Both the position numbers and the translations under genes were made by a program. Under the pieces are notes generated by a model. The model did not search any database, had not been told where the DNA came from, and saw nothing but the letters and a program-made list of their open reading frames with translations. A stretch of 26,023 nt of DNA from a virus: IMG/VR virus record IMGVR_UViG_3300010883_000379, positions 1 through 26,023 of that record; one strand, given 5' to 3'. Position 1 is the stretch's first letter; the number at the start of each line of letters is the position of its first letter. Below, piece after piece: positions 7,631 to 25,046 of this stretch.

Positions 7631-9570
7631 TGGCAGTCAGTTTTCCAACCAGCCCATCTACGGGCGACACGTTTGATGTGGGTCGCGTAAAATATGAGTG
7701 GTCAGGGTCGGCATGGAAGCAGGTGGCGTCTCAGCCCGTCTCCACTGGCGCTGAAATGCCATTTACAAAATCGGACGGGACGACCAGCGACCCGATCAAG
7801 CTGGCGTCGAGCGTCATAGGCGATGCCCTTGTCAACGACACCACTCCGCAGTTGGGTGGATCTCTGGATGTCAACGGCAACGCCATCGTCTCTACATCAA
7901 ACGCGAATATTGCCATCACGCCCAATGGATCGGGTTCAGTTGCCTTGAGTAAGGTTGATATTGGTGGTGGTGCGATAGACGGCACGATAATTGGTGCCAC
8001 GACTACTGCGGCCATTTCTGGCACTACAGGGACGTTCAGCGGAGTAGTCACAGGGGCAACGCTGGCAGGGACTATATCTACCGCCGCACAGAACAGCATT
8101 ACTTCAGCTTCGTCACTGGCCACGGTCGGGACGGTTACCAGTGGCACTTGGTCGGGTGTGATTGATGGGTCCGCTACAATAACGATGGGATCAGATGCAA
8201 CAGGTGACATGTACTATCGGGCTGCATCTACGGGCTACCTGACACGATTAGCTGCGGGAGCCGATGGCACTGTTTTGACGGGAACGGGTACTGGGTCAAT
8301 CCCTGCATGGGAAAGTGTCTCGGCGGGTGTATCGCTGAGTGGTACGACCGACGGCACCATCGCCACCGTCACAGGGGCCAATGCGTTGATTGGCGAGACC
8401 GCCCTGACGTTTGACGGTACCACGCTCAATGTGGTTGGCAACGCAGGGGTCGGTCTTGCGCGTACCGATGGCACCCTGCACGTACAAACAGCCTCAGCAT
8501 CTGGTGGCTCTGGCATTACTCCAGTGGCCGACTGCGACGATCTGGTTATCGAAAATAATGGCGTGGCTGGAATCACAATCGGCACAACCGACGCAACTCT
8601 GGGTAAGATTTCATTCATCTCACCATCGCAGAATAATGGTGCGTTTATTGAGGGGGGTCACAATAGTGCTGATCCCGTGCTAAAATTTAGCACTTCAAAT
8701 ACAGAGCGTATGCGGATCACCAGTGGGGGCAACATTGAGGTCAACGGCGCGGCGCATCGCATTAATGCGGCTGGAACGTATTTCGTAAACGACACAGCCA
8801 ACGCCAAAATGACGCAAGGAATTACGATTCAGCAAGGCGCAAACGACAACGAGATCCTCGCCTTCAAGTCGAGCGATGTCGCGCATGGGATGACACTTAA
8901 CCCTGTTGAAACAGATACATTTGCACACTTTAGAAAAGCACATGCCGATTATGGTGGCCTTCAACTTGCATCACACGGCGAAGCGCAGACATCTGCCAAT
9001 CTCAGACTTGAAGGTGCTTGTGGCGCAGACACATCAGACACGACTTCGTCCTATGCGGCGGTTCAGTTGTATGGGTTTGTCAATAATCCCGTCGGGGTGC
9101 GCGATGGAATGACTGCTACGTCAAATGCTGTTGGGTTCAATAATGCGGGTACTACCCGAGTTATCATAAAAGGCGATGGTACTGTTCATGCCAGTGACAC
9201 CAGTTGGGCAACAGCGTTAGATGATATGCCCGATGCGTTGGCGGGTCGCGCATATACGACTGAAATGGCAGATCGTCAGGGCGAGGGGTTGTTTGGTGGC
9301 ATGAAGGTCAATGCCCCTGAGTTAGTGCAACGCATGGAAGATGCGGGTATCGTGACCCATGCTGAATTAGAGGGCGAAGGGTCTATCCCCGGTCATCGTT
9401 TCTTAAATGTCCAGAAGGGTATCAAATTCAGTTGGGACATGGGATTCCAAAACTTTTCCTTCCTCGCAGAGATCGCAAAAGTGCTATCGCCAGAACAACG
9501 CGAAGCATTGCCTGCGCAGATGCAACAAGCATTTGCCCAACTTGAAGAGAATAAAATGGAGTTAAACTGA
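7630..9570 (+). CDS. Tail-fibre protein 2 (646 aa) with a non-S74 C-terminal domain
   Basis: The N-terminus (FPTSPSTGDTFDVGRVKYEW) is a short module frequent at the start of phage fibres. Residues ~70-250 are low-complexity beta repeats rich in Gly, Thr, Ser and Ala, with ATVGTVTSGTWSG-type units. A TERMRITSGG motif, seen in two other fibres here, is encoded at about 8701-8730. The C-terminal ~90 residues differ from the repeats and contain GIVTHAELEG, PGHRF and KGI, followed by a Gln/Glu-rich helix that may trimerise. No S74 autocleavage motif is present. The C-terminal pattern resembles that of the 620-aa fibre, and both are followed by a related ~100-aa gene. Probably receptor binding. Confidence 0.8.
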   Translation: MAVSFPTSPSTGDTFDVGRVKYEWSGSAWKQVASQPVSTGAEMPFTKSDGTTSDPIKLASSVIGDALVNDTTPQLGGSLDVNGNAIVSTSNANIAITPNGSGSVALSKVDIGGGAIDGTIIGATTTAAISGTTGTFSGVVTGATLAGTISTAAQNSITSASSLATVGTVTSGTWSGVIDGSATITMGSDATGDMYYRAASTGYLTRLAAGADGTVLTGTGTGSIPAWESVSAGVSLSGTTDGTIATVTGANALIGETALTFDGTTLNVVGNAGVGLARTDGTLHVQTASASGGSGITPVADCDDLVIENNGVAGITIGTTDATLGKISFISPSQNNGAFIEGGHNSADPVLKFSTSNTERMRITSGGNIEVNGAAHRINAAGTYFVNDTANAKMTQGITIQQGANDNEILAFKSSDVAHGMTLNPVETDTFAHFRKAHADYGGLQLASHGEAQTSANLRLEGACGADTSDTTSSYAAVQLYGFVNNPVGVRDGMTATSNAVGFNNAGTTRVIIKGDGTVHASDTSWATALDDMPDALAGRAYTTEMADRQGEGLFGGMKVNAPELVQRMEDAGIVTHAELEGEGSIPGHRFLNVQKGIKFSWDMGFQNFSFLAEIAKVLSPEQREALPAQMQQAFAQLEENKMELN

Positions 9571-9878
9571 TGGCTATATCTGGAAACATTGTAACGATGG
9601 GAAACCTTACCGCAACGGGTGCGTATCTGCGGATTTCGGATCTAACAGTGAAGAAGATTATTGAGGGTGACAACGACGGCAAATGGCAGATGACGTATGG
9701 CGTGGATTGTTATGTCAGTGCTGATGAACGTGCTTCGGCCTTGCCTGTGACCTTGGTCGCGCCCACAGTGGATCGGTTCAAAGTGATTACCGATGACGAG
9801 CCGAGTGATCCGTATGCGGCGGCGTATGCTGATCTCAAGACACAGTCCACTGTTGCCAATCCGAGTGACTTGGTGTAA
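9570..9878 (+). CDS. Small fibre-associated protein, copy A (102 aa)
   Basis: Paralogue of the gene at 13711-14013. Shared features in order are an N-terminal MA(I/L), a TGxY(L/I)R motif, a V+KK segment, a (D/E)xYVS motif, VDRF in the middle, and a C-terminal pattern YAxxKxQSxxA followed by D-V or D-L-V. No function is recognised. Both copies lie directly downstream of a fibre with a similar C-terminal domain. This suggests a fibre partner, such as an assembly chaperone or tip subunit, by analogy with other phages where a small gene after the fibre serves this role; that is inference. The start overlaps the fibre stop (TGATG). Confidence 0.75.
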   Translation: MAISGNIVTMGNLTATGAYLRISDLTVKKIIEGDNDGKWQMTYGVDCYVSADERASALPVTLVAPTVDRFKVITDDEPSDPYAAAYADLKTQSTVANPSDLV

Positions 9879-11405: not shown

Positions 11406-11816
11406 ATGCCTGCGCGACCGCCAAAAGACCCTGCAACTATTGGGAGTTTTGCTGAGTTGCGGGCGCACTATAATGTCCTCTATGGTATGTACGAGGATTG
11501 TTACAAAATGAAGGGCGCGACGAATGAAGCCCTTCGCCACCGGACAGGAGAGGTGCGTGGGACACAGGCGCAGCTAAAGCAGGCTCGGCGAGAGGTTGTA
11601 ACTTTAACAAAAAAAGAACACGCGCAGTCAAAAGAGCGGTCTTCAGCCGCTTTCGCAAGCACTGGTGCGACCGTCCTGATTATCACTTATCAGTTGGTCG
11701 AGGTGGGTGGGGGCTGGGGACGGTGGAGTCCAGTTTTTGAGCATGAGGCAACTATCGGTGTATTGCAAGTGATGATCGGAGCAATGATCGCATGGGCAAT
11801 GCGTCCTTTGAGATAG
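11406..11816 (+). CDS. Small membrane protein, possible holin (136 aa)
   Basis: Residues 1-17 (MPARPPKDPATIGSFAE) are shared exactly with the 47-aa protein at 14014. Residues ~40-80 are charged and helical, probably a coiled coil. Two hydrophobic segments follow: 79-100 (weaker, ending IITYQLVEV) and 115-132 (ATIGVLQVMIGAMIAWAM). A short basic tail (RPLR) ends the protein. Two membrane spans with a cytoplasmic coiled coil suit a holin or other membrane-active late protein, but many unrelated small phage proteins look like this and no endolysin lies nearby to support lysis. The gene starts directly after the S74-fibre stop. Confidence 0.7.
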   Translation: MPARPPKDPATIGSFAELRAHYNVLYGMYEDCYKMKGATNEALRHRTGEVRGTQAQLKQARREVVTLTKKEHAQSKERSSAAFASTGATVLIITYQLVEVGGGWGRWSPVFEHEATIGVLQVMIGAMIAWAMRPLR

Positions 11817-13710: not shown

Positions 13711-14013
13711 ATGGCACTACAATGCGATGTAATAACGAGTGACGGCATTGCGGTAACGGGAGTCTACATACGTCCACAGTTTGAGGTGAGAAAAAAGTTT
13801 GATTTAGACGAAGGGAAGAAGAGTTACCTCTTCGTCCAGTGTGAGGTGTATGTCAGTGAGGCTGTCGCTAATACCGATGGCGGCAGACGCCTACAAGCGC
13901 GTAATGTAGACCGCTTTAGAGGTGCGTGGGATACCGATGGTGGGAGCTTGGAGGCTCAGGGCTATGCGCTGATGAAGGAGCAGTCGGCGCTCGCGGACGC
14001 GACCGACGTATAA
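13711..14013 (+). CDS. Small fibre-associated protein, copy B (100 aa)
   Basis: Paralogue of the 102-aa gene at 9570-9878, diverged but alignable end to end: TGVYIR against TGAYLR, a CEVYVS segment against CYVS, VDRFR against VDRFK, and the C-terminal pattern YAxxKxQSxxA. No named domain is recognised. It follows the 620-aa fibre by one base, just as copy A follows the 646-aa fibre. The repeated pairing points to a job tied to those fibres. The next gene begins immediately after the stop (TAAATG). No membrane segment is present. Confidence 0.75.
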   Translation: MALQCDVITSDGIAVTGVYIRPQFEVRKKFDLDEGKKSYLFVQCEVYVSEAVANTDGGRRLQARNVDRFRGAWDTDGGSLEAQGYALMKEQSALADATDV

Positions 14014-14157
14014 ATGCCAGCGCGACCGCCCAAAGACCCTGCGACTATCGGGAGTTTTGCTGAGTGGTATGCCGACTTTGAAGTCGAGGTCGATCTGTCG
14101 GCTAAGATCAACGACCTCAATAGCGGCCCTCTTGCTGTTGCGAATCCGTGGGCTTAA
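14014..14157 (+). CDS. 47-aa peptide sharing its first 17 residues with the 136-aa protein
   Basis: Reads MPARPPKDPATIGSFAEW, then YADFEVEVDLSAKINDL, and ends in NPWA. The first 17 residues equal those of the protein at 11406. In those 51 bases only four differ (Pro2, Pro6, Ala10, Ile12), all silent third positions, which points to selection on the peptide itself. The remainder is unrelated to the 136-aa protein and has no membrane segment. The ATG abuts the preceding TAA, the same arrangement as at 11406. It could be a true small protein, or the head of a gene that lost its membrane-spanning 3' part; the clean silent pattern favours a functional peptide. Confidence 0.6.
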   Translation: MPARPPKDPATIGSFAEWYADFEVEVDLSAKINDLNSGPLAVANPWA

Positions 14158-14172
14158 CGCACAGAGGTAGGA

Positions 14173-14373
14173 ATGGACGCTGATCACATTCTTTCTGCCG
14201 TGATTTTGGTTTTCGTTAGTTTGACTGGGGCGAGTCTATTTTTATTGCTGTCAATTAAAGATAAGGTTACCTCGTTCGACAAAAAGCTCCACGCGCAGGG
14301 CCAGAAATTCACACGCCTAGTCGAATGGGTCAATGAGCAAAAGGGCGTAAAGCGCAAGAGTAGAGATGACTGA
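14173..14373 (+). CDS. 66-aa single-span membrane protein
   Basis: Residues 6-28 (ILSAVILVFVSLTGASLFLLL) form one strong membrane span close to the N-terminus. The rest is a charged, basic helix ending KGVKRKSRDD. AGAGG and AGGA precede the ATG at good spacing. The stop overlaps the start of the MscS-like gene (TGATG), suggesting coupled expression and perhaps a physical partner. The layout suits a small holin, a pinholin-type protein or an anchoring subunit; no sequence motif separates these possibilities. Confidence 0.7.
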   Translation: MDADHILSAVILVFVSLTGASLFLLLSIKDKVTSFDKKLHAQGQKFTRLVEWVNEQKGVKRKSRDD

Positions 14374-14756
14374 TGGAAACTGATGTCGCCGAGGAGGCTT
14401 TACGCACCTTTGGGGCGCAGTCGGGGCTGGCGGTGCTGGTTGAGCAATATGTTTGGTATTTTGCAGTCGCATTTGCCTTGCTTTTTTTGAAAGATAGCGT
14501 GACGAATGCGCTTGCAGGAATAGCGATGTTTGTGGGGAGTGATTACGATGAAAATATGGTGTGTTACATCCAGACGAATGGGTCGCGCCGTCCAGCGCGA
14601 ATAACCAAAACTACACTGCTCAGCACCTCGTTTTATTTATATGAAGTGAAAGACGGAAAAATAGAAGGCGGGACCTTATTGACCGTCCCCAATTCTGAGC
14701 TTAAATCGCTTAGGATTGAACGACCATTAGACACCTTACACTTAACAAAGGAATAA
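14373..14756 (+). CDS. MscS-like mini-protein: one membrane helix plus beta domain (127 aa)
   Basis: Residues 26-43 are a membrane helix (YVWYFAVAFALLFLKDSV). They are followed by a stretch that matches the pore-helix end and beta domain of MscS mechanosensitive channels: DSVTNALAGI (41-50, compare the GSLSNLAAGV type in MscS), a strand region, LLSTS (82-86, compare the conserved 'FST' step), KDGKIEGG (93-100) and VPNSEL (105-110, compare 'IPN+K/L'). Full MscS has ~286 residues with three membrane helices and a C-terminal cage; this protein lacks the first two helices and the cage. In MscS the last helix lines the pore and seven subunits assemble. Channel activity here is not shown. It overlaps the one-span protein gene upstream, which might supply missing membrane parts. 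Confidence 0.6.
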   Translation: METDVAEEALRTFGAQSGLAVLVEQYVWYFAVAFALLFLKDSVTNALAGIAMFVGSDYDENMVCYIQTNGSRRPARITKTTLLSTSFYLYEVKDGKIEGGTLLTVPNSELKSLRIERPLDTLHLTKE

Positions 14757-14762
14757 AGTGCT

Positions 14763-14918
14763 GTGGATAAAACAATCGAACAAGTGCGGGAAGAACAGCA
14801 GGCTGTTTTAAATCGTCACACCGAGCTTCAGCAAGAATTAAAGCAACTGGAAGCCAGATGGAATTACTTACTTGGGCAAGTGGAGCTTCTTGCTCCCGAA
14901 GTAAAAGAAGAGGAGTAA
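14763..14918 (+). CDS. 51-aa coiled-coil protein with GTG start
   Basis: Reads MDKTIEQVREEQQAVLNRHT and continues as a charged helix through LKQLEARWNYLLGQVELL to a Glu-rich end. The heptad-like spacing of Val, Leu and Trp indicates a short coiled coil. The start is GTG (no ATG in frame), with AAAGGA about 11 bases upstream. It begins six bases after the MscS-like gene stop and ends three bases before the next ATG, so it fills the gap between two genes exactly, which supports it as real. No membrane segment or named domain. It could be a minor structural peptide or a regulator of the neighbouring membrane proteins. Confidence 0.65.
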   Translation: MDKTIEQVREEQQAVLNRHTELQQELKQLEARWNYLLGQVELLAPEVKEEE

Positions 14919-17723: not shown

Positions 17724-20700
17724 ATGACTAATGCGGCGGCGAGCACTCGATTCAGTGGCAACTCGGCAGACATCAACCCCGAGGACTACATGGACAGCAA
17801 AGGGCGCATAGATATTAGTAAGTTGCCCCCGGAGTTTCAACAGGCAATTAGCGATTGGGGTGGGCGAGTCAAAATTGGCGGCAAGACCTATGCGGTAGGA
17901 GGGGATGGCTACTTGTATGTGGGCGGCGTATTCCCGGGTTCGATGCAACCCGGCGCGCAGGGAAATGTGGCAGGGGGAGGGATGGATGGGCAACCCGTGC
18001 ATAACTTTACGACCGCCAATCAGGCGGAGGTCAAGGTCTTATCGGAAGACGATGAGTCGGGGAACTTAGGGGACACCCCAGAGAACGACGAGTTCGACCC
18101 AGAGGACGACGTCCTTGACCTTGACGACCTTGAGCAAGACCCCGCGCAGGATAGCTTTGACCTTTATAAGGAGTACATCGCAAACCAGCCAGACTTTAAA
18201 CAGGAGTTTAAGGACAAGCAGGAAGAGCCTATGCCCGAGTTGACTCCTCAGCAGAGGGAAGAGCTATTTGAGAAGGGGAGCATAATTATAGATGGGGAGC
18301 AATATTCCCATAGTAGCGGAGAGATCATCCGCATGCCAAACTGGGATAAATACAATCAGGAGAACGAACACGGAACTTTCACGGGGGAGAAAATTCCAGA
18401 GCTATTTTTAGACGGGCTTGAGGGGACAAATCTCTCTGGGACGAACAGAGACAACCCTAATGCCCCCCTCGGCGACCACTCCTTGCCCGGGTCGTCTGAG
18501 TATATTGAGGGCGGAAAATCATACCTCCCCCAATTATGGGGAGATGATGATTACTCGGCGCAATATAATGGGAAGCCGGGAGGGCAAGGAGTAATCACCC
18601 TTACGCCCCAAGAACAGGCGAAGTACGATAGTGACGGCTATGTTGTCCGGGATTCATGGGCTGGCTTCCCCTCCGCCCATAGTGAGGGACGATACCCGGT
18701 CTTTGCAAAGGGCGTAGATGGGCAGATGGTGCTACTTGGAGATGTGTCAGCCACGCGCATGAGACACTCCGACGCCGAAGAAATTATGATAAAAAATGAC
18801 AGGGGGGATTGGGTAAGGCAGTTCGCCCCAGAGGACCGGGGTGGTCTGGATATGGGCGACATACACAACAAGGTCATGGACCTAATCAAGCGTAGGGGCT
18901 TTGACCAAGAACTCCCCATGGAATACTACGACACCAGCCCGCTCGACGAGCGTGGCTATGATGACATAACTGGGCAAGATTCTTATGGCCCCAACGTCAT
19001 ACCGAGGGGGGATATAGGGCTAAGGGTTCCCAAGCTCGACCCCTTTGGGGGGGATATGGGTGAGTGGGCAAGGAGGTTTGAGAAGTTTGCGGAGGAGGAG
19101 GAGCGGGTTCAAGAAGGAAGGCAGGGACGTTTTGATGAAAGGGACAGGAAGTATGAGGAGTTGCACCCGGATGAGGAGAAAGATCCCGACACTGGAGAGT
19201 GGCGCAAAAAAGAGCAAGATCTCGAAAACTACCTTGATGACCGAAAGAAAGGTCAGGCTCTGAAGGCCGTTGACGCAGAGGACACTACCTCCGCATACGA
19301 ACTGATGGCTGACACATTCGCAGAGAGCAAAGACAGGGCAAATGGGGATGAGGATCTTGGAGCAAATGGAGACGTGACGAATGGCACAAACGACTTCACG
19401 ACGGATGGCACCCGCTTCGGCCCCCCGGGGGGTCTCGGGGCTTTCCCAGATGCGTTGCCCGAGGGGCTTACGTCATTTAGCGCATATCAGGAGAACTGGA
19501 TCGCCGAGCGCTACGCTGAGCTAGTCGAGGAGTTCGCGCGCGACCGCCCGCATCATTGGCGGCGGTTACCCAAGCGGGATGCCAGTAGACAGGCACGGAA
19601 AGAGGGGACGCCAGAAAACCTGCAAAGTGACTGGCTCTTTCGCATCTCCGATGAGCTTGAAGCACCCGGCATGACTAGTTGGGACGACCTGAGTGACGCG
19701 CAGAAGGAGACGCTTATGTCTGGCCTGCCCGAGAAGTCACGGGATGGGCTTATAAATCCGCCCAAGGTGGGAGAAGGGGCGCAAGAAGAGGGGGTGGAGG
19801 TGCCCAAGAGTCCGACGGATAAGTGGTTTGAGTCAGCCGCAAACATAGACGCCTATATCAAAGAGTTCGTATATGCGGCTGGCACCTCTGATGACATAGC
19901 CCAAGTGTATAAGGATTACGTGCAAATCGACCGACCGGACGTTAATGCGCGGTTGGTTGAGCTTGGCGTCAACAAGAACGCATTTTTTGAACAGGGCGCT
20001 GATGTTCCAGCCCTCGTTCGGGAGCTATACAGCAACCCGAATTGGACATCGTCCTTCACGACTGATCCTACTGACATCAACACACAATATCCGGTTGACA
20101 CCGGAAACGAACTGACGCCCGACTGGGAGCGGTATACCCGAGACCTGTCCGCGCAACTCAACGCAGGGACGATTGACTGGAATATCTTCTCCGGGGCTGA
20201 AGGCGATCAATTATCGCAGGGGTGGGAGTCGCCTGTGACGCTTTACGACGTCGACGGCGTGGCCCTATTCGGCATGGAACATGGCCGCATGCAGAGGTTC
20301 GAGGAGCTACCGGAGTCCGTACGCACCGCGCTGGCCGAGGAGGTTAATAGCCCTGTGTTTCAGTCTGCCCGCCGCAGGCGTGAAGGTCCCCCGGATGATG
20401 GCGGAACTTATGTGTGGGACGACGACCTTGGTGACTATAGGCAGGATCAGGCATATGATGGCCAAGGGGGGGAAGCTGACTGGGATGCTATCGGAAGGGG
20501 TATCCTTGGCGAGGTCAGCCACGGCGACCCCAGTCGATTCTTCCCGGGGAACATCGACAACTACACCTACACCGATTCGGATGGGATTGCCCGCCCATTT
20601 TCCACATTGCCGCCCGAGTTGCAGAACCAAATACGCACACAGTACCTGTCCAATCCCTCGTATGTAGAGCGAGCTAAAGAGCACGGGATGGCGAACAAGC

Positions 20701-23700
20701 CCGAGGGGTGGAATGACAGTTGGGTGTTCAATCCGCTGACATACCAGTGGGATGGGCCGAGTGGCTCTAGTAGTGACTTAGACAACGACGAGACCCACTA
20801 CACAGACGCGAATGGAAATCGCGTTAGGATACCAGAGAATCCCCTCGGTCCCGATGCCGTGTTTAACCCGACGACTGGGACATGGGGGGCGAGGGCGGTG
20901 GATAACCTTGGCAGTTTCCCCAACGACTTTGGCAATTACCCCGACCAAGGAGTGTCTACGGGCGAGGGGTGGTTTCAGGGAAGATCCATTCAGCGCCCCA
21001 ACGAATCGGCCCAGTGGGATGCGTCGACGGGCCTATGGGAAACGCCAGCGGTTAGCTCTCCTGTAAGCAGACAAGACTTTCAGTATCCTATTGATTTTGC
21101 TAATAACCCCAGCGAAGGGGGTGGTGGCGATGGTGGCGGTGACGCCACATGGACGGGTGACCAACCCGGAGGAGGTGGGGACCCCACGGGCGGCGGGTTT
21201 ACGAACATGGATCTGGTGGATCAAGCTGGTCAGGCGGCGAGTGACCTTATCAAGCAAGGTGGTCTATCGTCGGAAGAGCAGAAGGCGATCCTCGACAACA
21301 AGACGGAGCCATACTACGAAGAGGCTGGACGTAGCATGGATGACATATTAGAGGGGCACGCTGGCAGGGGAACATTCCATGGTGGCGGTCCCGACTCTGA
21401 GGTGGCGGAGTACATGACTGGATTTAGGCGCGATCTGGCCACAGATGTTTACTTGCCGTGGCTGGAAGGCAGGGAGACCAGCCAGCGCGAGAATATTCGC
21501 CTCGGTGCGGAGATCGGCGGTGAGGGATTCCGACTGGGCGAAGGAAGCGACAAGCAGGACTTCGACCAGCGCATGCAAGAGGCGGAGGTGACGGGCTTTC
21601 TGCCCGGCGCAGAGATCACCCTGAACGACCTCGGCTTCGACCTTAGAGACTACCAAGACAGTTCTGGGCTTACAGGTTCCGGGCAGGCCGAGAAGTGGCG
21701 CACGGACCTCCCGGACATTCAAACCAATTTCAACCGCATCATGGGCCGGGACATGACGAACAGCGAGGCTCAGAGAATGCTATCTGGGGGGTCGATTACC
21801 ACCTTCCAGCCCACCGCATCTCGGTATGCCTCTGAAAAAGAGATCCAGCAGAACTATGAGAATTTAAATCTCGAAGGGCGCCGTGTTGCCGTGGCAGAGG
21901 GCGGACTTGGAATAGAGAAGCACTTGGCCAAAATCAAAGAGTGGGAGGTGAAGGGCTACGACGACGAGGGCAAGAAAATCGCCAGCTATTGGCGCGAACA
22001 CGAAGACGATAAGTTTGAGGTATTAATGCGTATGGGCGGAGATTGGACCGTCTTGGACGAGTATGGCAACCCAGTTATAGACCCCGTAACGCTGAAGCCC
22101 AAAACAATACACGTCTACGGCACCGACGACCTTGCGAATCGTGAAAATATTCGCGCCGAAGATCGTCGAAATGGATACGAAAGGGTCTCTGTCTGGGTTG
22201 ACGAGAACGGAAAGCGCCACGTCAGGTATGACCCAGAGACAACCGATCCGATTATAGAGAGAGTGTACGGAACCGACGAGATCGGCAAGCTGAGTGGTGA
22301 TGACCGCCTGCAATGGGAGAAGGACAGGTACACGGGCTTCTACTTCGACCGGGGCACGGACGGTCATCCGATCTGGGTCACCGGGACGGTTGGCATAGAG
22401 AAAGAACGAATGAGTGTTCAAAAAGCGCTCCAGCGGGCTGGGTTTACTCAGGAGACAGCAGAGCGTGTAGCGACGCAAAACTACCAAGACAAGCTGGCCA
22501 CTGGATTTTGGGGGCACGACGGCCATAAGCCTATTTACATTATGGGGACGCAGTCTTTTGCCGCACACGTACAGAAGATGGCGTCTGAGTTGAATGTGTC
22601 GGAGGCGGAGGCGCAGATGTTCTTGCGCGCACAGGAGCGCGAGGGCTTCACGATGGTGTACGAGGTCCCCATTGGCCAAGACGAAGATGGCAACACTATC
22701 ACGTCTACGCGCTGGCGCAAGGTTCGGGGCACATGGGACCGCGAGGATGAGGTGCAGGGTAGGGCAGACCAGTTGGTGCGAGATGGGTGGGACGCTGATA
22801 CGGCACGCCTTTTTGTAGGCGAGCAAATCGCCGCCCGTGAGCGCAATGGATACTGGAGCGTCAAGACGGTCTGGAACCCCGACACGAAGAGGCACGAACC
22901 TCAATACACTCCCGACGGTAAGCCCGACCATGTGTGGGTTGATGGCTCCAAGCAAGCACAGGACTGGATTGCCCGCCAAGCCCACAAGCGGGGAATAGAG
23001 GAGATTTACGTCAAGGACGCCTTGGACAGGGCGACAGGTGACGCCGCGATTGTCAGGCAGGGCTATGCCACTGCGCGGGCGCAGTTCTTGATGACGCAGG
23101 GCTACTCCGAGAAGGAAGCATATAGGATTGCAACAGACGAGACGGACGACCTGACAGGCGAGGAGTTTAAAAAGAGGTACGGGATGACGCTTGCGGAGCG
23201 CATCGCCGAGAAAGACCTTGCGGCGGCAGACTCGCGGTATGAAGCGACACAGAAAAGGGCGCTTATCAACTCGTCGATACAGGCGCTGGCCATGATCGGG
23301 AAGGACATGTTCCCCCTCTTGGCTAACATACTTGGTTGGGATATAAATGAAAACAACGATCCCAATGACTCCTCTGTGCCCAACTTCGTCAATTTCTTCT
23401 CCAAAGCTTGGTACCTGAAAGAATTTGGAGATAGGGGGCACGACACGGAGACGCTCACAAAATCCTACAACAGCTTGATGAGCATATTTCAAGAGCAGGG
23501 ATTACAAGTGCGTGTAGTCGATGGGTGGTCCGTGACGGTTGACGATTCGGGGGATATTGTATCGTTTAGCCGCGAAGAAGAGCGGACCCATACTGTCAAG
23601 CCTGTGGCGGTTGACGCTGACGGCAATCCGGTGGTGGTGGAGACGGACGAGAAGGAACCTGACAACACCAGAGAGCAGGGCGCGGCGGCTGTTATCATAG

Positions 23701-25046
23701 AGCAGGGCGTTCACTGGGGGGCGATAGACCCGGGCCTTATTCAGAACAACCCCGGTCCTTGGAGCGATAATGACTGGAACTATTCCAAGTCCCAGTTGTG
23801 GGATTGGGGGGATTCCATATCAGACGAGCCAATCGCCTACGAGGACTTGAAGTACGTGCAATTCCCCTTCGACCTTCCTTCGGCGGGCTTTGATGTCGAG
23901 TTGAATGGATACGTCTACACGCCCCAAGGCATGGCTGACCTCAGCCAGCGCACCAAGGAGTGGGTCAACAACCCAGCCTCTGATTTTATGAGTGACACGG
24001 GGTATACGTGGGACGACTTTACTCCGACGGAACAGCTTTCCCTCGTAAAAAGCTACGAGTACATGCACGGGGGAGACATACAATTCAAGCGACCGTGGCA
24101 CGACTACCGAGGGCAGGGCAAGGTGGGGCTGATCAAGGCTGTTGGCAGGGCGCTCACATTCCAAAAGGGTTTTTTCCAAAGCTGGGATGGGCATGTCCCA
24201 AGCATGACAGATCAGGGGCTTCTCTTGGCCACAATGCACCTCAACCCAGCCACGGCGGGGTTTTATATAGCTGGAAGGGTGGCTGGCGGCATATTTAGCG
24301 ACATCACTGGCCATGCGCGAGAGCAGTGGATTAACGAGGGCATCGAATTATTCACGCCGGGAGTGGGGGGGAGTTCAATAAAGGCGTACTGGATGCAGAA
24401 GTTCCTTCCCCCAAACGTGCCCGACATGGGATATGAACTCAATGACATTCATATGATAGGCTTGCGGATGCAAGCAGAAGACACGGGCAGGGAAGACGAC
24501 AAGGGGAACCCCATCTATGAGATGAGGATGGTGTACACCAAGGGCACCCCCCGGGGCGGCGGGCGCCAAGAGGTATACGAAGAGACTATGGATGAGTTTA
24601 TAACTCGGACGGGGCAGGTCCCACGCTCCTTAGTCAGTATGGGAGGCATGCCCGAGCCAGTGCTTACTGGAGGTGCGGAGGTACAGTATGAACATCCGGG
24701 GGAGTTCCTTCAGGAGGTGTTTGACCTCAGACTAAAAGATGGAAGCCCGTGGACGCCAGAGTATGCACTGGTTGACGTGCCCGATCATATGCTCGCCGAG
24801 GGCGTCGAACGCCAGTTCCCGGGTGAGCAGGTGGTGCGCCTCATCGACGCAGACAACTTCAACAATTTCAAAATAATCACCTTGGATGAGTGGATCGCTG
24901 TGATGGATGACCTTGGGGTCGGCGACGCCGCCGCTGGCGTTGTAGTGCCAGCGTCGCGCACCCATGACCGCATCGGCGTAGACAGCGTAGAAGCGGGACA
25001 GGACGGCGAGGATAATGGAGAAGACCACGACAGGCTCGGCACATAA
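17724..25046 (+). CDS. Giant virion protein, putative DNA-ejection protein (2440 aa)
   Basis: Its place after the nozzle, its size and its acidity suit a large protein ejected with the DNA; no known enzyme domain is recognised. Regions: an acidic N-terminus; three LPxE helix motifs at residues 34, 863 and 962; Trp-rich FNPxTxxW motifs near 1002 and 1046 and a related one near 1096; a Gly/Asp-rich linker at ~1128-1160; seven modules opening with G(Y/F) at 1412, 1485, 1539, 1595, 1642, 1710 and 1781, most with V-x-GT strands and an Ala-rich helix; hydrophobic helices at ~1848-1872 and ~2165-2192 that could enter a membrane; and a C-terminal region ending in an Asp/Glu-rich tail. No polymerase motifs like those of the N4 virion RNA polymerase and no lysozyme motif were seen. 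Ejection is inferred. Confidence 0.7.
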   Translation: MTNAAASTRFSGNSADINPEDYMDSKGRIDISKLPPEFQQAISDWGGRVKIGGKTYAVGGDGYLYVGGVFPGSMQPGAQGNVAGGGMDGQPVHNFTTANQAEVKVLSEDDESGNLGDTPENDEFDPEDDVLDLDDLEQDPAQDSFDLYKEYIANQPDFKQEFKDKQEEPMPELTPQQREELFEKGSIIIDGEQYSHSSGEIIRMPNWDKYNQENEHGTFTGEKIPELFLDGLEGTNLSGTNRDNPNAPLGDHSLPGSSEYIEGGKSYLPQLWGDDDYSAQYNGKPGGQGVITLTPQEQAKYDSDGYVVRDSWAGFPSAHSEGRYPVFAKGVDGQMVLLGDVSATRMRHSDAEEIMIKNDRGDWVRQFAPEDRGGLDMGDIHNKVMDLIKRRGFDQELPMEYYDTSPLDERGYDDITGQDSYGPNVIPRGDIGLRVPKLDPFGGDMGEWARRFEKFAEEEERVQEGRQGRFDERDRKYEELHPDEEKDPDTGEWRKKEQDLENYLDDRKKGQALKAVDAEDTTSAYELMADTFAESKDRANGDEDLGANGDVTNGTNDFTTDGTRFGPPGGLGAFPDALPEGLTSFSAYQENWIAERYAELVEEFARDRPHHWRRLPKRDASRQARKEGTPENLQSDWLFRISDELEAPGMTSWDDLSDAQKETLMSGLPEKSRDGLINPPKVGEGAQEEGVEVPKSPTDKWFESAANIDAYIKEFVYAAGTSDDIAQVYKDYVQIDRPDVNARLVELGVNKNAFFEQGADVPALVRELYSNPNWTSSFTTDPTDINTQYPVDTGNELTPDWERYTRDLSAQLNAGTIDWNIFSGAEGDQLSQGWESPVTLYDVDGVALFGMEHGRMQRFEELPESVRTALAEEVNSPVFQSARRRREGPPDDGGTYVWDDDLGDYRQDQAYDGQGGEADWDAIGRGILGEVSHGDPSRFFPGNIDNYTYTDSDGIARPFSTLPPELQNQIRTQYLSNPSYVERAKEHGMANKPEGWNDSWVFNPLTYQWDGPSGSSSDLDNDETHYTDANGNRVRIPENPLGPDAVFNPTTGTWGARAVDNLGSFPNDFGNYPDQGVSTGEGWFQGRSIQRPNESAQWDASTGLWETPAVSSPVSRQDFQYPIDFANNPSEGGGGDGGGDATWTGDQPGGGGDPTGGGFTNMDLVDQAGQAASDLIKQGGLSSEEQKAILDNKTEPYYEEAGRSMDDILEGHAGRGTFHGGGPDSEVAEYMTGFRRDLATDVYLPWLEGRETSQRENIRLGAEIGGEGFRLGEGSDKQDFDQRMQEAEVTGFLPGAEITLNDLGFDLRDYQDSSGLTGSGQAEKWRTDLPDIQTNFNRIMGRDMTNSEAQRMLSGGSITTFQPTASRYASEKEIQQNYENLNLEGRRVAVAEGGLGIEKHLAKIKEWEVKGYDDEGKKIASYWREHEDDKFEVLMRMGGDWTVLDEYGNPVIDPVTLKPKTIHVYGTDDLANRENIRAEDRRNGYERVSVWVDENGKRHVRYDPETTDPIIERVYGTDEIGKLSGDDRLQWEKDRYTGFYFDRGTDGHPIWVTGTVGIEKERMSVQKALQRAGFTQETAERVATQNYQDKLATGFWGHDGHKPIYIMGTQSFAAHVQKMASELNVSEAEAQMFLRAQEREGFTMVYEVPIGQDEDGNTITSTRWRKVRGTWDREDEVQGRADQLVRDGWDADTARLFVGEQIAARERNGYWSVKTVWNPDTKRHEPQYTPDGKPDHVWVDGSKQAQDWIARQAHKRGIEEIYVKDALDRATGDAAIVRQGYATARAQFLMTQGYSEKEAYRIATDETDDLTGEEFKKRYGMTLAERIAEKDLAAADSRYEATQKRALINSSIQALAMIGKDMFPLLANILGWDINENNDPNDSSVPNFVNFFSKAWYLKEFGDRGHDTETLTKSYNSLMSIFQEQGLQVRVVDGWSVTVDDSGDIVSFSREEERTHTVKPVAVDADGNPVVVETDEKEPDNTREQGAAAVIIEQGVHWGAIDPGLIQNNPGPWSDNDWNYSKSQLWDWGDSISDEPIAYEDLKYVQFPFDLPSAGFDVELNGYVYTPQGMADLSQRTKEWVNNPASDFMSDTGYTWDDFTPTEQLSLVKSYEYMHGGDIQFKRPWHDYRGQGKVGLIKAVGRALTFQKGFFQSWDGHVPSMTDQGLLLATMHLNPATAGFYIAGRVAGGIFSDITGHAREQWINEGIELFTPGVGGSSIKAYWMQKFLPPNVPDMGYELNDIHMIGLRMQAEDTGREDDKGNPIYEMRMVYTKGTPRGGGRQEVYEETMDEFITRTGQVPRSLVSMGGMPEPVLTGGAEVQYEHPGEFLQEVFDLRLKDGSPWTPEYALVDVPDHMLAEGVERQFPGEQVVRLIDADNFNNFKIITLDEWIAVMDDLGVGDAAAGVVVPASRTHDRIGVDSVEAGQDGEDNGEDHDRLGT

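Follow-up and report, generated by a model that had tools for sequence, protein, structure and literature searches.

A phage-encoded single-helix protein family homologous to the TM3b helix and beta domain of MscS

MscS is a bacterial pressure-release channel that guards cells against bursting, and phages must burst their hosts on time. A 26 kb viral contig (IMG/VR record IMGVR_UViG_3300010883_000379; the whole stretch of 26,023 nucleotides is called the window below) carries an open reading frame that raises the question of what a phage might do with a part of such a channel. The ORF starts with ATG, lies on the + strand at 14373-14756 and encodes 127 residues, METDVAEEALRTFGAQSGLAVLVEQYVWYFAVAFALLFLKDSVTNALAGIAMFVGSDYDENMVCYIQTNGSRRPARITKTTLLSTSFYLYEVKDGKIEGGTLLTVPNSELKSLRIERPLDTLHLTKE; we call its product mini-MscS. 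The initial annotation had described it as a fragment of an MscS-type channel, with one membrane helix and a series of motifs in the order and spacing of MscS. The ORF, the single hydrophobic helix and, after it, the motifs DSVTNALAGI, LLSTS, DGK and VPNSEL are all present in this order. The MscS-like order of the motifs thus holds; the spacing differs somewhat, as there is an insertion in the first beta hairpin and the second hairpin is longer than that of MscS.

The AlphaFold model gives the layout of the protein. DSSP assigns an acidic N-terminal helix to residues 3-16 (14379-14420, + strand), which is kept in close relatives and is shortened or missing in distant ones. A long helix follows at residues 19-54 (14427-14534, + strand), with the membrane span first and then a TM3b-like part. 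This part holds an N-x-x-A-G motif (N45-G49), and A48 and G49 are present in at least 90% of 27 aligned members of the family. The MscS-type beta domain occupies residues 61-119 (14553-14729, + strand). Its model strands are 63-68, 71-80, 84-93, 96-106 and 115-119, and VPNSEL (residues 105-110) precedes the last of them.

As a single sequence, the window protein had no match in Pfam, PHROGs, PDB sequences or 50,697 named phage records. Searches of PDB sequences with early family profiles gave nothing meaningful, and tblastn of five diverged relatives against the named phages gave only weak matches, with E about 1 or worse. We collected relatives by iterated searches of IMG/VR, the last round of which returned 113 matching stretches, 80 of them kept. 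Identity over the successive rounds was 80-86%, 54-69%, 34-61% and 30-66%. The family is found on at least 106 unique uncultured viral contigs, the window counted, that is, on at least 105 others. Nearly every member that we read has about 100-160 residues and the same plan: a short N-terminus, a single membrane helix, an amphipathic helix of the TM3b type, the beta domain and then a stop. Among close members for which dS could be computed, dN/dS was about 0.02-0.16, with many dS values near saturation, and this indicates strong purifying selection on the gene. The word "fragment" was therefore too weak for what is a complete and strongly conserved family. The family was not found above the Pfam threshold, nor among PHROGs and the named phage records, yet it occurs on more than 100 uncultured viral contigs. 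A 138-residue viral protein in BFVD (A0A1B1IQW5) is 60% identical to the window protein, despite the empty tblastn search of named phages. One match on a genome contig, L019, was set aside as due to chance: it is a 54-residue stretch within an ORF of 1850 residues from a Candidatus Zapsychrus MAG.

Comparison of family profiles tied the protein to MscS. As a reference for hhalign we used 32 MscS proteins from the phylum around a Candidatus Zapsychrus genome. With 27 members, the alignment reached a probability of 94.7% and a score of 49.0, and placed window residues 36-115 on the end of TM3a, TM3b and the beta domain of MscS; it begins close to the TM3a/TM3b boundary. Nine close members gave a score of 31.9 (69%), and 82 members a probability of 95.7%. 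The best of 100 column shuffles scored 18.6, and the reversed alignment 13.3. Thus, the expected profile match to MscS was obtained, in register and far above the shuffled and reversed controls. The Pfam profile of the MscS beta domain, PF00924, matched six of the eight members scanned separately, all six of them distant (E 0.0026-0.047). These matches are in register and always start from profile position 2-3, yet they remain under the gathering cut-off of 20.2 bits. Judged by these profiles, mini-MscS is homologous to the pore-helix end (TM3b) and the beta domain of MscS.

The predicted fold agrees with this assignment. Already with the model built from 9 sequences (pLDDT 60.5), the MscS of E. 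coli and of Trypanosoma cruzi were at the top in Foldseek. With the model from 27 sequences (pLDDT 70.9), T. cruzi MscS took the first three places with E 0.008-0.011; the E values for MscS chains are modest overall, 0.008-0.06. In VIA, chains of the MscS family made up the majority of the 50 top matches, with Z about 7-8, which is weak if taken alone. The VIA superposition places model residues 21-120 on residues 92-180 of E. coli MscS with an rmsd of about 3.5 over 88 residues. MscS structures are thus the best match of the model, as was anticipated from the motifs. Could the likeness nevertheless be a matter of chance or convergence, a helix joined to a small SH3/Tudor-like barrel that has nothing to do with MscS? 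Taken by itself, the barrel of the model has myosin X and Tudor domains among its matches too, and the Pfam matches stay below the cut-off. However, the profile match covers helix and barrel in register and exceeds every shuffle, and members of the MscS family dominate the list of folds. We strongly disfavor this explanation and regard it as very improbable. Since Z alone is weak and the barrel resembles other domains, the assignment to MscS rests on two things, the profile result and the match of helix and barrel in register.

Which features of the MscS superfamily does the protein keep? The beta domain is present, homologous by hhalign and by fold though below the Pfam gathering cut-off, and so is the amphipathic TM3b helix joined to it at the N-x-x-A-G region. 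The TM1 and TM2 tension-sensing paddle is absent, as is the C-terminal alpha/beta cage in the members read; in the window, a single span within about 127 residues and a stop soon after the beta domain bear out the initial annotation on this point. The Gly/Ala-rich, pore-lining TM3a is absent too. Gly and Ala make up 17% of the phage membrane helix versus 40% of MscS TM3a, and aromatic residues 25% versus 6%. Because the Gly/Ala-rich packing face of TM3a is not conserved, the pore, if there is one, must pack in another way.

The part that is retained is the subunit-contact core of MscS, and the tension-sensing TM1-TM2 is missing. This would suit a protein that imitates an MscS subunit, its beta domain and TM3b helix docking onto host channels of the MscS family and blocking, jamming or opening them. 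On the other hand, the phage family has strongly diverged from the 32 reference MscS proteins, with 15% identity over the aligned residues, and its own members are conserved in phages of different types. Both are as expected of a protein that assembles with itself, and docking onto host channels appears unlikely to us.

The surroundings of the gene give further indications of its role. It had been placed among late phage genes and in overlap with a gene for a one-span membrane protein, and indeed tail-fibre-like genes lie on one side and virion genes on the other; PHROGs matches in the window include a major capsid protein and a virion protein among the nearby virion genes. The late region also contains a very large ORF of 2440 residues (17724-25046), possibly an internal virion protein. 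Two paralogous genes of about 100 residues, at 9570-9878 and 13711-14013, each follow a tail-fibre-like gene, and in some relatives such a small gene directly precedes mini-MscS or its partner. In the window, the start of mini-MscS overlaps an ORF for a 66-residue membrane protein with one span and a charged C-terminal tail (14173-14373, + strand). The overlap that had been reported is real and amounts to one shared base (TGATG). Directly downstream lies a GTG-start ORF for a coiled-coil-like protein of 51 residues (14763-14918, + strand).

The 66-residue protein has a clear relative in L024 (5544-5747) and, by eye, another in L086. Thus, the proposed search for the same gene pair in other phages did not reveal a constant pair: this partner is only occasional, and the commoner neighbour is a protein of 136-144 residues with a coiled coil and two membrane helices. 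In 31 other contigs, a coiled-coil/2-TM protein of this kind is encoded within 1 kb of mini-MscS and on its strand. The intact window copy (11406-11816, + strand) has 136 residues, starts with a coiled coil and ends in a membrane hairpin, and is located 2.6 kb upstream of mini-MscS; it matched no known family. Just before the gene for the 66-residue protein, an ORF of 47 residues (14014-14157, + strand) shares its first 17 residues identically with the 136-residue protein and is then unrelated. By its sequence, this ORF is likely to be a remnant of the usual neighbour or a recombination scar. We also considered whether the hairpin of the neighbour could supply the missing TM1-TM2. This is disfavored, as its charges, read by eye, suggest that both ends are inside, and the MscS hairpin is oriented the other way.

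In the relatives of the window, mini-MscS stands directly after the last tail-fibre gene and beside the 136-144 residue protein; often, small coiled-coil and small membrane proteins come after it, and convergent genes often follow too. Different coiled-coil-like proteins of 63-75 residues occur near mini-MscS in L021, L025, L096 and L116. Other neighbours are a lipoprotein-like protein in L037 and L038, and a protein with a membrane helix and a coiled coil in L032 and L074. The conserved pairing with coiled-coil proteins, together with the loss of the MscS pore-helix signature, is what one would see if mini-MscS formed no pore and served as a membrane-anchored scaffold, a cytoplasmic oligomeric platform that supports the coiled-coil/2-TM partner or the assembly of virions at the membrane. 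Of 26 loci with the partner, 15 lack mini-MscS, and contig ends truncate some of these. The contig L096 carries mini-MscS (2042-2467); about 14 bases stand there instead in L092 (3411-3428), with flanks about 90% identical on both sides. In the phage group of the window, mini-MscS is thus optional, a single gene inserted into a late cassette of a lysis-like kind. Gain and loss of this one gene while the rest of the cassette stays intact argue against an essential structural role, and we think a scaffold without a pore quite unlikely.

No endolysin or known holin family was recognized beside mini-MscS in the window. Among the relatives, L030 has a GTA_holin_3TM gene (E 7e-20) 0.6 kb downstream of mini-MscS, and L001 and L005 have Peptidase_M15_3 genes a few kb away. 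The cassette ends with a protein of 174-185 residues in L088 (3849-4373, - strand) and also in L090, L092, L096, L101 and L103; its motifs HPHGDAVD and GIGLYPHW..FHxD resemble those of M15 peptidases, with no Pfam or hhalign support.

A second large group of relatives is myovirus-like, as read from the sequences of the neighbours, and here mini-MscS stands apart and has no lysis-like cassette. An upstream element, [AG]ATATTTAT, accompanies 16 of the 24 mini-MscS copies of this group. Its density upstream of genes is 14 times that within them, and it occurs before other phage genes as well. In L131, L142, L146, L158 and others it lies about 40-60 bases before mini-MscS. This hints that the element may be a shared, possibly late, promoter, with the copies coming from related sequences. 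The occurrence of mini-MscS outside lysis-like cassettes would fit an osmotic safety valve. In this reading, mini-MscS is a minimal mechanosensitive channel through which solutes leave the swelling infected cell, which thereby stays intact until the virions are done. TcMscS of T. cruzi has neither TM1 nor the cage and works as a mechanosensitive channel (PMC12334622). However, the phage protein is one helix short of TcMscS, and the packing face of the pore helix is lost. It seems to us rather improbable that the protein acts in this way.

The explanation that we prefer, at a little under an even chance, is that mini-MscS is an oligomeric membrane protein of a minimal MscS type, produced late in infection and probably acting as a small pore or tension element. 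The single helix would cross the inner membrane, and the acidic N-terminus of the protein would point outward. The TM3b-like helix and the beta domain would then be on the cytoplasmic side, which is where the beta domains of MscS are arranged in a ring. The protein would most likely assemble as a homo-oligomer, by analogy a heptamer, which may make a small pore or a tension-responsive membrane element late in infection. As a member of the late cassette, it would probably modulate the permeability of the membrane, the turgor of the cell or the time at which the host lyses. We infer these steps, channel activity and gating included. A stronger version, possible but doubtful, is that environmental phages acquired the MscS core with its single helix as an accessory gene, whose product is a minimal tension-sensitive pore that controls turgor or lysis timing. 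If so, this pore would be a class of phage membrane proteins apart from the known holins, and mini-MscS would be among the smallest known MscS-type channels. A viral family with only the MscS core raises two questions that can be tested: what is the least of MscS that makes a membrane pore, and do phages manipulate the turgor of the cell or the tension of its membrane?

Among open-licence papers we found none on phage-encoded MscS channels, and a survey of virus-encoded transport proteins lists only large DNA viruses, and no phage proteins, under mechanosensitive channels (PMC6163359). These putative channels, MscS-like in an Aureococcus virus and MscL-like in a Tetraselmis virus and CroV, are virus-encoded and resemble mechanosensitive channels, as mini-MscS does; they differ in belonging to viruses of eukaryotes, and the MscS-like one has 261 residues and three membrane helices (PMC6163359). 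Phage holins, for example GTA_holin_3TM (PF11351), are likewise small membrane proteins of late regions, but we saw no sequence relationship to mini-MscS. With E. coli MscS and PF00924 (MS_channel_2nd), the phage protein shares the TM3b motif, the beta domain and a P-N motif in register; it lacks TM1/TM2, the alpha/beta cage and the Gly/Ala packing of TM3a, and its Pfam score is under the cut-off. TcMscS, the miniature MscS of T. cruzi (PDB 9bgq/9bgt/9bgu) and the top Foldseek match, has the beta domain and lacks TM1 and the cage, like the phage protein, and is nevertheless mechanosensitive (PMC12334622); unlike the phage protein, it has an N helix and two membrane helices (TM2 and TM3). The microsporidian MscS2 of Nematocida displodere has kept TM3 and the beta domain and lacks the cage; it is compact, like the phage protein, and cryo-EM shows that it forms a heptameric membrane channel (PMC11262690). 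In these two precedents a very small part of MscS is enough, and this favors a minimal MscS-type oligomeric membrane protein as the explanation of mini-MscS. MscS2 is a gene of bacterial origin in a eukaryotic parasite and its homo-heptamer has been seen, whereas the phage protein is known from its sequence and a model; the phage proteins have, in addition, a conserved acidic N-terminal helix in the close group and a longer beta hairpin.
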